The notes beneath the pieces are model-generated. The model did not search any database. It had not been told where the DNA came from and worked only from the letters and a program-made list of their open reading frames with translations. A stretch of DNA of 64,000 bases from a virus, in IMG/VR virus record IMGVR_UViG_3300024348_000014, positions 1 to 64,000 of that record. One strand, given 5' to 3'. A program made the position numbers and the translations under genes. Shown in pieces: positions 2,490-5,216 of this stretch (the stretch's first letter is position 1; every line of letters begins with the position of its first letter).

Positions 2490-3106
2490 TAACATCAGAA
2501 CAATTTCACCATCTATTTCCAAGAGCACAAGACCCAACATCATGGGCAGAGTCTATGTGTAATGTATTTCCAACATATGATATAACAACACCAAAACGTG
2601 TGGCAGCATTCCTCGCTCAGTGCGGTCATGAGTCTGGTGGTTGGACAGTGTTTGAAGAAAACCTTAACTATTCAGCACAAGGATTAAATGGTATCTTCAA
2701 GAAGTATTTTCCTACACTTGAATCTGCACAACCTTATGCACGCAAACCAGAAATGATTGCCAATAAGATCTATGCTAATCGTATGGGTAATGGCGCACCA
2801 GAATCAGGTGATGGATATAGGTTTCGTGGTCGTGGACCAATTCAACTAACTGGTCGTGCAAACTATACAGCATTTGCTAAAGAGATGTTTGAAGACTGGC
2901 AGAATGTGGTAGATAATCCTGACTGGGTTACTGCTGATCGTGATTTTGCTCTTATGTCAGCTATTTGGTTCTGGAATAAAAATGGACTAAACAAAGAAGC
3001 AGACGCAGGTGATCTAAAATTAATGACCAAAAAGATTAATGGTGGTTACATTGGACTTGAAGATCGCATTAAACATTATAATGAGTGTATTGATTTACTT
3101 ACCTAA
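2486..3106 (+). CDS. GH19 chitinase-type endolysin
   Basis: 206 aa glycoside hydrolase family 19 domain, used by many phages to cut peptidoglycan glycan strands. The signature FLAQCGHESGGW gives catalytic Glu49 with a second acidic pair at Glu57/Glu58, followed by YANRMGNG and the strongly conserved GYRFRGRGPIQLTGRANY near residues 112-129. There is no signal peptide or membrane anchor, so release would need the holin (minus strand, 15449-15871). The start ATG overlaps the phoH stop. A second GH19 domain sits inside the tail spike gp5. Confidence 0.93.
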   Translation: MITSEQFHHLFPRAQDPTSWAESMCNVFPTYDITTPKRVAAFLAQCGHESGGWTVFEENLNYSAQGLNGIFKKYFPTLESAQPYARKPEMIANKIYANRMGNGAPESGDGYRFRGRGPIQLTGRANYTAFAKEMFEDWQNVVDNPDWVTADRDFALMSAIWFWNKNGLNKEADAGDLKLMTKKINGGYIGLEDRIKHYNECIDLLT

Positions 3107-3756
3107 TGCCAACATTTATACATCATGATCTTCCCAAATTGGAACGTACCGACTCTAACCAAGTTAGACTTTACAAAACCCCGTCGGGTCGAGCCTATCC
3201 AAGCATCACCACCATTACAGGACTCCACTCAAAACAAGGAATCCTCGAATGGCGAAAAAGAGTCGGAGAAGCAGAAGCAAATAGAATCTCCAGCCAAGCA
3301 AGTAAACGTGGAACAAAAGTCCATGGATATTGTGAATCATATCTCCGCAGTGAACTCTGTGAACCTGACACGTTCGATTCAGAGATATTTGGAAGAATTA
3401 GACCCTACCTCGAAAAAATAGATAACATACATGCATTAGAAACACCATTGTATTCTGATCATCTTGAGGTTGCTGGGACTGTTGATTGTATTGCTGAGTA
3501 TGAAGGTAAACTTTCAGTTATTGATTTTAAAACTTCAAGCAAACCAAAGACTAGAGATCACATCCATGGCTATTTTATGCAGACTGCAGCATATGCTGTG
3601 GCATTCGAAGAACTAACAGGAATTCCAGTAGGAAGACTGGTTATCATAATGGGTATAGACGATAATCCGACAAAAATATTTGTCGAAAAAAGAGATGACT
3701 GGATCGATGGATTTAAAAGTCTAAGATTAGAATATAAAAGTAAACATGGAATCTAA
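3106..3756 (+). CDS. RecB-like PD-(D/E)XK exonuclease
   Basis: 216 aa. The C-terminal half has the RecB-nuclease pattern: ALETPLYSDHLEVAGTVDCIAEY (conserved Glu, then GT-D), SVIDFKTSSKPK (the D-x-K catalytic pair, near residue 139) and the QTAAYAVAFEE helix typical of the Cas4/RecB family. The N-terminus (SGRAYPSITTITG) matches phage exonucleases that process or degrade DNA. It overlaps the previous stop (TAATG) and its last 11 bases overlap the next gene, so it belongs to one transcription unit with phoH and the endolysin. Confidence 0.88.
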   Translation: MPTFIHHDLPKLERTDSNQVRLYKTPSGRAYPSITTITGLHSKQGILEWRKRVGEAEANRISSQASKRGTKVHGYCESYLRSELCEPDTFDSEIFGRIRPYLEKIDNIHALETPLYSDHLEVAGTVDCIAEYEGKLSVIDFKTSSKPKTRDHIHGYFMQTAAYAVAFEELTGIPVGRLVIIMGIDDNPTKIFVEKRDDWIDGFKSLRLEYKSKHGI

Positions 3757-4213
3757 TATTAATTTTTTTGAGCATGTATTATCTAATGATGACTGTCAGA
3801 CATTAATAAATTATTTACTAAATGATACTCCATCAGCAGTTTCATTAGATTATAATAATTTAAAAAGAACACGAGTATTAGAGCATTACATTGTTATTGA
3901 TCTAAGTAAAAAATTAAATATCAATTTTGATCGAGCGTTTTTAATGCATTATAATGCAGGAATTGGTTCCGTATTACATAATGATAACTATTCGATTGAA
4001 GAATCACGAGAAGTATTTAATGCATGGAAATCTTCTGCTGTTGTGTTTTTAAATCAAGAATTCGATGGTGGAGAATTGATTTATCCAAATCAGGGGATTA
4101 CTATAAAACCAGTAACAGGTAATATGGTAATTGCACCAGCAGATGAAAGCGCACCACACTTCGTGAGTCCATCATCTTCAGATAGATATGTATTAGTATT
4201 AAGAATTATTTGA
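3746..4213 (+). CDS. 2OG-Fe(II) oxygenase (prolyl 4-hydroxylase-like)
   Basis: 155 aa. The dioxygenase core is visible: HYNAGIGSVLHNDNYS (H-x-D iron ligands near residues 77-79), VVFLNQEFDGGELIYPNQG (the FDGGEL strand typical of P4H-like enzymes), then APHFVSP (distal His, around residue 133) and SDRYVLVLRI (Arg that would hold 2OG). The protein is short, single-domain and cytoplasmic. Such enzymes are frequent in T4-like marine phages and their substrates are mostly unknown. The TGA stop lies inside the -35 box of the next promoter. Confidence 0.88.
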   Translation: MESNINFFEHVLSNDDCQTLINYLLNDTPSAVSLDYNNLKRTRVLEHYIVIDLSKKLNINFDRAFLMHYNAGIGSVLHNDNYSIEESREVFNAWKSSAVVFLNQEFDGGELIYPNQGITIKPVTGNMVIAPADESAPHFVSPSSSDRYVLVLRII

Positions 4214-4238
4214 CACGTAAGAATATATAATGTATAAT
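4210..4238 (+). promoter_or_regulatory. Perfect consensus sigma70 promoter for the tmRNA gene
   Basis: TTGACA at 4210-4215, exactly 17 bases, then TATAAT at 4233-4238. The -35 box overlaps the TGA stop (4211-4213) of the upstream gene. A second TATAAT lies at 4226-4231 but at wrong spacing. Transcription should begin near 4245, at the 5' edge of the tmRNA acceptor piece. Confidence 0.88.
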
Positions 4239-4319
4239 TGTGATATTGCTGTATGAAGCAAAGAGAAAAGTGTTCTGGACGGGAGTTCGATTCTCCCCAC
4301 CTCCACCAAAAAGATAATT

Positions 4320-4427
4320 ATGAAAAATAGATATACCGCATTGTGTCCAACTTGTTTTATTAGATTTCAGTGGATAAAGGACAATGGGTTATCGAAACAT
4401 AAGTGTCTTTCTGATGGGGGTGACTAG
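4320..4427 (+). CDS. 35-aa zinc-finger-like mini-protein in the tmRNA intervening segment
   Basis: ATG at 4320 opens a 35-codon frame that runs through the intervening segment and stops at TAG 4425-4427, inside the mature coding piece. It contains LCPTC (Cys9, Cys12) and KHKC (His27, Cys29), a CxxC-x14-HxC arrangement like a small zinc finger, with aromatic and basic residues between. The ribosome-binding site is weak (AAAGATAATT). If real, it would be made from the unprocessed tmRNA precursor. It could equally be a chance ORF; the Cys/His spacing is the only support. Confidence 0.4.
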   Translation: MKNRYTALCPTCFIRFQWIKDNGLSKHKCLSDGGD

Positions 4428-4500
4428 GTTTCGACAGGGCAACAAGTAAATGCGTGGACAGCACGAGACAGATACTCGTTAAAAGTAAAAAACCGTAAAC

Positions 4501-4533
4501 GCAAACGACGCACAGTTCGCATTAGCAGCCTAA
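4501..4533 (+). other. tmRNA tag reading frame (ANDAQFALAA)
   Basis: Codons GCA AAC GAC GCA CAG TTC GCA TTA GCA GCC TAA give ANDAQFALAA and stop. GCA is the resume codon, as in Escherichia coli, where the tag is ANDENYALAA. The C-terminal LAA is the known ClpX degron. The stop lies in the helix-5 region, where TTAGCAG pairs with CTGCTTA, as in classical tmRNAs. Confidence 0.92.
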
Positions 4534-4652
4534 ACACTGCTTAGGGTTTCGGTAGGTTTCCTCGTAACAGAATAACCTACCACTTTATTATGCCAGCCAC
4601 GTAGTGTGCCAGCCATATAATTTTAACCTTATTACAACTTATAGGAAAATAA

Positions 4653-5216
4653 ATGAAATTGAAACTTATCACTGCTGCTTCTCTAGTAGCATTCTCTGCA
4701 ATGGCAAGCGCACAGTCATCTGTAACTGCAACATATGGTGTTAAAGAAGCAAATGTTACAAGTGTGCAGAGCCATGTAACGAACATGTCTGTTAAGACTC
4801 GTGCATTTACCAATGTCGATCTTGATGCAGGTATCAATACTGAAACTGCTGACGTAGCACGCACTGTTACAAATCGTTATGAAATTGGTGTATCTACAGG
4901 AATGGATCTAACTTCATTTCTTCGTGGTGATGTTCGTCTTGGTACTGGTATGAAGCAAAAATCAGGTGTTCAAGACTTTGGTTACTACTCTGTAGAACCT
5001 GGAGTTACTGCAAAGTTTGGTGATATTAGCACACGTGTAGCATATCGCTATCGTACTGCATATGACTCAAATGTTAATGCTGATACTAGTCAAACTATGC
5101 GTTATAGCGTAGGTTATGCATTAACTAAGAAAGATGCTATCCGACTTGGATATGATGTTCAAAGTGGTGATGGTGCTAACAAGCAAACTACTATCGCTTA
5201 CACTCGCTCATTCTAA
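4653..5216 (+). CDS. Outer-membrane beta-barrel protein with signal peptide
   Basis: 187 aa. The N-terminus MKLKLITAASLVAFSAMASA followed by QS is a classic Sec signal peptide with an AxA cleavage site. The mature part alternates polar and hydrophobic residues in strand-like runs (YEIGVSTGMDL, RGDVRLGTGM, TRVAYRYRTAY, MRYSVGYALT, AIRLGYDVQ) and ends TTIAYTRSF with a C-terminal Phe, the outer-membrane assembly signal of beta-barrels. It resembles small OmpA/porin-like barrels rather than virion proteins. An AGGAAAA site precedes ATG. It is likely a moron expressed in the infected Gram-negative host, perhaps changing the surface to exclude other phages; that role is inference. Confidence 0.78.
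   Translation: MKLKLITAASLVAFSAMASAQSSVTATYGVKEANVTSVQSHVTNMSVKTRAFTNVDLDAGINTETADVARTVTNRYEIGVSTGMDLTSFLRGDVRLGTGMKQKSGVQDFGYYSVEPGVTAKFGDISTRVAYRYRTAYDSNVNADTSQTMRYSVGYALTKKDAIRLGYDVQSGDGANKQTTIAYTRSF

Follow-up and report, generated by a model that had tools for sequence, protein, structure and literature searches.

A beta-type permuted tmRNA gene in a T4-like phage and the probable use of its intervening sequence as a slot for small protein-coding cassettes

The sequence that is removed from a two-piece tmRNA is usually regarded as a waste spacer. A tmRNA locus in the genome of an aquatic T4-like phage raised the question of whether this sequence can carry a gene of its own. The locus lies in a stretch of 64,000 nt (the window), which comprises the first 64,000 bases of a source record of 110,195 bp. 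The proposal that this DNA belongs to a T4-like phage was borne out by genes for TerL, the portal (PHROG 213), the sheath (PHROG 23) and a baseplate/gp5-like hub (PHROG 430). The phage falls in the vicinity of the Kyanoviridae, and its closest cultured relative is the Methylophilales phage Melnitz (TerL 51%, portal 57%). A PhoH gene (1722-2489) and an exonuclease gene (3106-3756, plus strand; PHROG 298, E=4e-71) mark a conserved phage tmRNA locus, as a homologue of the exonuclease is found upstream of tmRNAs of either type, alpha or beta, in relatives (Melnitz among them), and PhoH in most of these. A 2OG-Fe(II) oxygenase-like gene (3746-4213, plus strand), which is kept only in the close relatives L125 and L128, abuts the tmRNA promoter on its upstream side.

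The original prediction placed a circularly permuted, two-piece tmRNA gene at this locus and proposed covariance models or ARAGORN as a check. These programs matched a complete permuted tmRNA at ~4247-4587. ARAGORN identified a single tmRNA gene in the window, of the permuted form (tmRNA*), at 4216-4624 with the tag ANDAQFALAA. Two Rfam models were matched from end to end with scores above their gathering scores, RF01850 beta_tmRNA at 4196-4587 (127.2 bits, E=2.2e-38, model 1-331/331) and RF04321 tmRNA_permuted at 4247-4533 (131.8 bits, model 1-213/213).

Direct reading of the sequence agreed with the proposed layout, in which the CCA-ending half precedes the coding half on the plus strand. 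The acceptor piece (4247-4308), as delimited by the RF04321 and RF01850 alignments and by covariation, consists of one strand of a closing helix (4247-4252), one strand of a second helix (4271-4277), the T-arm, the acceptor strand CACCTCC (4298-4304), a discriminator A (4305) and the CCA (4306-4308). It is followed by an intervening sequence (IVS) of 107 nt (4309-4415), which is not part of the mature tmRNA. The coding piece (4416-4587, ending where the RF01850 match ends) begins with the acceptor strand GGGGGTG (4416-4422), which forms the 7-bp acceptor stem, and continues with the partner strands of the second helix (4435-4441) and the closing helix (4458-4463), the mRNA-like part and a 3' stem-loop. 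The mature pieces are thus predicted to span ~4245/4247-4308 and 4416-~4587. The tag frame, ANDAQFALAA followed by TAA, was found at 4501-4533 and has the protease-signal ending ALAA. The perfect sigma-70 promoter was also present, TTGACA-N17-TATAAT at 4210-4238 on the plus strand (score 12/12; predicted start ~4245), and relative L125 has the identical pattern. Since the promoter ends at 4238, the 5' end of the acceptor piece is the expected transcription start.

Comparison of 88 distinct phage sequences supported these structures. Every position of the helix 4271-4277/4435-4441 was paired in 94-100% of the sequences, with compensatory changes at 6 of its 7 pairs. The acceptor stem was 100% paired yet invariant, and it contained the G3-U70 alanine identity pair (G4418-U4302 in the window) in 88/88 sequences. 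The predicted fold of the precursor, in which the acceptor stem is carried on into the IVS, was better than that of 100/100 shuffles (z = -2.96). These data bear on the reading that the tmRNA parts serve as a decoy or represent a relic, acting for example on host AlaRS or SmpB, and that only a small gene within the IVS matters. Although phage tmRNA forms that lack a CDS or are inhibitory are known (DS6A, cited in PMC11915505), the full-length model match, the intact tag frame ending in ALAA, the G3-U70 pair, the covarying helix and the consensus promoter make this reading very improbable. The gene instead has the appearance of a working beta-type permuted ssrA gene. No SmpB gene was found in the 110-kb record, which may be incomplete.

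The tmRNA gene as such is another example of the known phage permuted tmRNAs. The original prediction regarded a permuted tmRNA in a T4-like phage as undescribed; this was wrong because PMC9004378, published in 2022, reports one in the T4-like myophage Melnitz, together with 53 two-piece structures among phage genomes, and because the matches listed in an IMG/VR pattern scan included well over 50 distinct permuted tmRNAs from phages. A 2025 tmRNA database contains 79 phage sequences of all forms. Melnitz (EXVC044M) resembles the window in being a T4-like member of the Kyanoviridae with a permuted tmRNA at the PhoH-exonuclease locus. However, Melnitz has an alpha-type tmRNA (RF01849, 106.7 bits) with a glutamine riboswitch after it, whereas the tmRNA of the window is of the beta type and has no such riboswitch match, and the downstream genes differ. 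As alpha and beta types share the PhoH-exonuclease locus, the sequences would be consistent either with replacement of the tmRNA type at a fixed phage locus or with an old divergence from which both types derive.

The tmRNA had also been proposed as possibly the best clue to the host lineage. This proved useful with regard to type, as the window sequence scored 127.2 bits with the beta model versus 67.6 with the alpha and 40.9 with the cyano model. It resembles the permuted tmRNA of betaproteobacteria (RF01850) in gene order, helices, tag type (ANDxxxALAA) and full-length model match, but differs from it in residing in a phage and in having a 107-nt IVS with an ORF. The clue was weak with regard to lineage, as the comparison with bacteria identified no donor. 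When 84,980 genomes of bacteria and archaea were scanned with the phage T-arm pattern, four matches were obtained, in Patescibacteria and Kiritimatiellota MAGs, and these were rejected as donors: none of the four had a permuted tmRNA over the cut-off, one having a sub-threshold partial match of 30.2 bits. That scan thus gave no permuted tmRNA with the exact T-arm variant of the window. In separate observations, orphan tmRNA-like T-arm/acceptor segments, with no coding half found nearby, were seen in H5-H7 Achromobacter phages and at many loci of the IMG/VR scan; these are perhaps integration-site fragments or tRNAs.

The unusual and apparently undescribed part of the locus is the IVS, which the original prediction had not considered and which appears to be protein-coding. 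A search of the open-access literature (subscription papers being outside it) found IVSs with a tRNA gene or a repeat and no report of one that encodes a protein. The IVS of the window contains an ORF of 35 codons (4320-4427, plus strand) with the translation MKNRYTALCPTCFIRFQWIKDNGLSKHKCLSDGGD, which includes a CPTC...HKC motif. Its ATG lies 11 nt past the CCA and its TAG stop 12 nt into the coding piece. The Shine-Dalgarno sequence is weak (AAAAGAT), a degenerate form also seen in L245, whose IVS ORF belongs to a different family. Ten copies of the tmRNA locus of the window that were compared, duplicates included, came from several metagenomes and were identical over 707 nt. The only diverged homologue of the ORF, in L269, has four nucleotide changes, two synonymous and two nonsynonymous (conservative), and keeps the frame open. 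No relatives of the 35-residue peptide were identified by tblastn in phage records, and searches against Pfam and PHROG gave no or sub-threshold matches only (DUF7752, E=0.018). A structure model had three short strands with moderate confidence (pLDDT 73). Because the model is of that confidence and had no match in the PDB, it is only the CPTC...HKC motif that suggests a zinc ribbon.

An IVS ORF was also found in Melnitz, led by a Shine-Dalgarno sequence and different from that of the window (MFKWLSKTRLVVITRDYF...; L357:10985-11437, corresponding to MZ577097 45984-46436). The GenBank record has no annotation of this ORF, nor is it mentioned in the passages of PMC9004378 found by keyword. Homologues of the Melnitz ORF occur in the viral contigs L393, L395 and L409.

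To determine how often such ORFs occur, we used the IMG/VR pattern scan as an unbiased sample; among the matches listed there were some 69 distinct IVSs, and 57 distinct IVSs of at least 60 nt were compared with shuffles. An ATG 7-17 nt after the CCA with a frame open to the IVS end was found in 16 of those 57 IVSs, versus 5.1 in dinucleotide shuffles (maximum 11 in 500 runs). With a Shine-Dalgarno sequence as well, the count was 7/57, versus 0.39 in the shuffles (maximum 4). Manual reading identified about nine true-looking small genes among the 69 distinct IVSs listed (~13%). The phage IVS ORFs share a common plan, with a start codon 9-16 nt past the CCA and a frame that fills the IVS, and they form at least 15 mutually unrelated families. 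Many matches of a separate scan with a Shine-Dalgarno pattern were set aside, the second tmRNA piece being absent. Start-to-end frames in IVSs of 60-61 nt (L034, L060, L076 and others) are probably due to chance, because these IVSs have strong end helices and no Shine-Dalgarno sequence, and the pair L060/L076 has a pN/pS of 0.99.

Substitutions between homologous IVSs showed protein-coding constraint, that is purifying selection, on the IVS ORFs as a class. In six beta-type pairs, including that of the window and L269, pN/pS was 0.22 (p=7.5e-5), as compared to 0.51 and 1.45 in the two other frames, which contained 51 and 40 stops. Five alpha-type pairs gave a comparable picture (pN/pS 0.24, p=3e-4; other frames 1.04 and 1.06), with 5, 6 and 18 changes at codon positions 1, 2 and 3, respectively.

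For the window itself, the alternative is that this is an ordinary two-piece phage tmRNA, as in Melnitz, with a spacer that is open by chance and discarded. The absence of an ORF from most phage IVSs would fit such a reading, as would the roughly five frames in 57 that reach the IVS end in shuffles of the matches listed, the weak Shine-Dalgarno sequence and the single diverged homologue. However, the frame is open for 35 codons and its start offset (+11) matches that of IVS ORFs that have a Shine-Dalgarno sequence and are conserved within families. In addition, L269 retains the frame with silent and conservative changes only, the CPTC...HKC motif is present, and clear protein genes occupy the same slot in related phages. 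We consider a chance ORF unlikely; the shared start offset and the open frame in one homologue support the window ORF in particular as a gene. Since most phage IVSs, including that of the close relative L125, have no such ORF, the tmRNA does not require the peptide.

One of those protein genes encodes a 146-aa staphylococcal nuclease (SNase; Pfam E=2e-11, PHROG 452 E=1e-33), the longest cargo seen, which fills the 454-nt IVS of L108. Homologous IVSs in L279, L280 and L309 likewise contain SNase genes, and there a single tmRNA model match extends over 634-637 nt and both pieces. The same nuclease gene occurs in L284 and L286 with the same neighbours, the exonuclease gene before it and the downstream gene after it, but tmRNA pieces are absent, so that the tmRNA may have been gained around the nuclease gene or lost from it. 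The other cargoes are smaller. Four IVS variants (L044, L242, L244 and L245) have an ORF for a 41-aa membrane peptide, and other predicted membrane peptides of 22-38 aa were found in L016, L058, L104, L257 and L096. Soluble frames of 50-78 aa were found in L079, L086, L148, L240, L246, L274 and L275; that of L275 matches the C-terminus of PHROG 4098 (E=1e-10). Two IVSs had a more complex organization. The 192-nt IVS of L217 contains two overlapping candidate ORFs, the second for a 47-aa membrane-like peptide. The 237-nt IVS of L090 ends like the non-coding 134-nt IVS of L248 and has GTGGTGCTCCACCA in its middle, which points to the insertion of a unit that is tRNA-like or a second IVS.

Comparisons between loci showed that the IVS is an exchangeable cassette slot, with swapping between near-identical tmRNAs. 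Between the window and L125, identity is 94% for the upstream DNA, 94% for the acceptor piece, 89% for the coding piece and 94% for the downstream DNA, while the two IVSs (107 vs 74 nt) are unrelated. Conversely, the window and L269 have IVSs that are 96% identical and upstream DNA that is unrelated. The IVSs of L274 and L276 are 98% identical, versus 78-81% for their tmRNA pieces, and those of L044 and L245 94%, versus 82% and 75%. The simplest mechanism would be homologous recombination in the conserved tRNA-like flanks. Based on these sequence comparisons, we think it likely that the PhoH-exonuclease-tmRNA locus of the window carries a beta-type tmRNA with an IVS cassette slot that here encodes a 35-residue cysteine-rich peptide.

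Such a gene would have to be expressed from an RNA that is also processed. We propose that the tmRNA is transcribed from its own sigma-70 promoter and that the precursor is processed by one cut at 4308 and another, made by RNase P, at 4415/4416. The host would charge the RNA with alanine and is assumed to supply SmpB, and the phage tmRNA would then tag stalled chains with ANDAQFALAA. Either the precursor or the excised IVS may serve as the message for the 35-residue peptide. The ends of the IVSs as a class pair with one another, extending the acceptor stem: the mean energy was -10.0 kcal/mol for own ends versus -3.8 for mismatched ends (79 distinct IVSs). The pairing in the window (-6.4 kcal/mol) was equalled by 17% of mismatched ends and is not significant alone. 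ORF-bearing IVSs pair more weakly, mostly at ~-5 to -10 kcal/mol, and the 5' strand of the IVS-end helix is formed by the Shine-Dalgarno sequence AAGGA or a relic of it. The start region of the peptide thus forms part of a helix that prolongs the acceptor stem, which makes a coupling of translation to the maturation of the tmRNA probable; with the Shine-Dalgarno sequence in that helix, maturation cuts or opening of the helix could expose the ribosome site.

In the window, in L246, L096 and L275, and in Melnitz and the Melnitz-like alpha-type families, the frame crosses the RNase P site as GAT/GGG, and the excised IVS would therefore be a non-stop message. This led to the hypothesis, rated as unproven, that the ORF is a built-in sensor, whose peptide would be tagged and destroyed as long as trans-translation works and would accumulate when it is saturated. 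However, most other beta-type IVS ORFs, including the 41-aa family and SNase, stop before the cut, and translation may come before cutting, and we judge such a sensor to be unlikely, slightly more so than a chance ORF. The message of Escherichia coli arfA, which encodes a small protein, is likewise non-stop and controlled by tmRNA, and is not linked to ssrA. The likeness is one of analogy only; the protein is different and the phage regulation conjectural. In its broadest form, in which permuted phage tmRNA genes are platforms for mobile cassettes, the excised IVS is an mRNA that in the class of the window becomes non-stop once the tmRNA matures, and the rescue RNA both carries and polices its own messenger as a self-contained sensor of rescue capacity during infection, the proposal is equally doubtful.

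The preferred reading, an IVS that serves as a cassette slot, has partial precedents. PMC11915505 reports single cases of permuted tmRNAs whose IVS contains a repetitive element or a gene for tRNA-Ala; these likewise have an IVS content beyond a spacer, but it is an RNA gene or repeat, as compared to the protein-coding cassettes of many phages here. The same paper describes self-splicing group I introns with homing endonuclease genes in the T-loop of tmRNAs, where a protein gene likewise lies inside a tmRNA gene and is excised from the transcript. In the window the T-loop is intact (4286-4292) and Rfam intron families were not matched; the slot corresponds to the IVS of a permuted gene, and its removal would be by ordinary tRNA processing. 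If phages do carry small genes in the IVS, tmRNA precursors would be bifunctional RNAs that join ribosome rescue, RNA processing and translation in a single transcript, and many very small phage proteins would have been overlooked by annotation. The permuted order would also gain an advantage, in that the slot can be filled without altering either mature piece. A cultured phage-host pair exists for this system, Melnitz on H5P1 (Methylophilales).

Just 3' of the tmRNA gene of the window is a gene for a 187-aa protein (4653-5216, plus strand) with a signal-peptide-like start and weak similarity to outer-membrane beta-barrels (Pfam OMP_b-brl, E=0.054), possibly an envelope or superinfection protein. 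It has 97% identity to its counterpart in L125 and 42-48% to those in L128 and L242.
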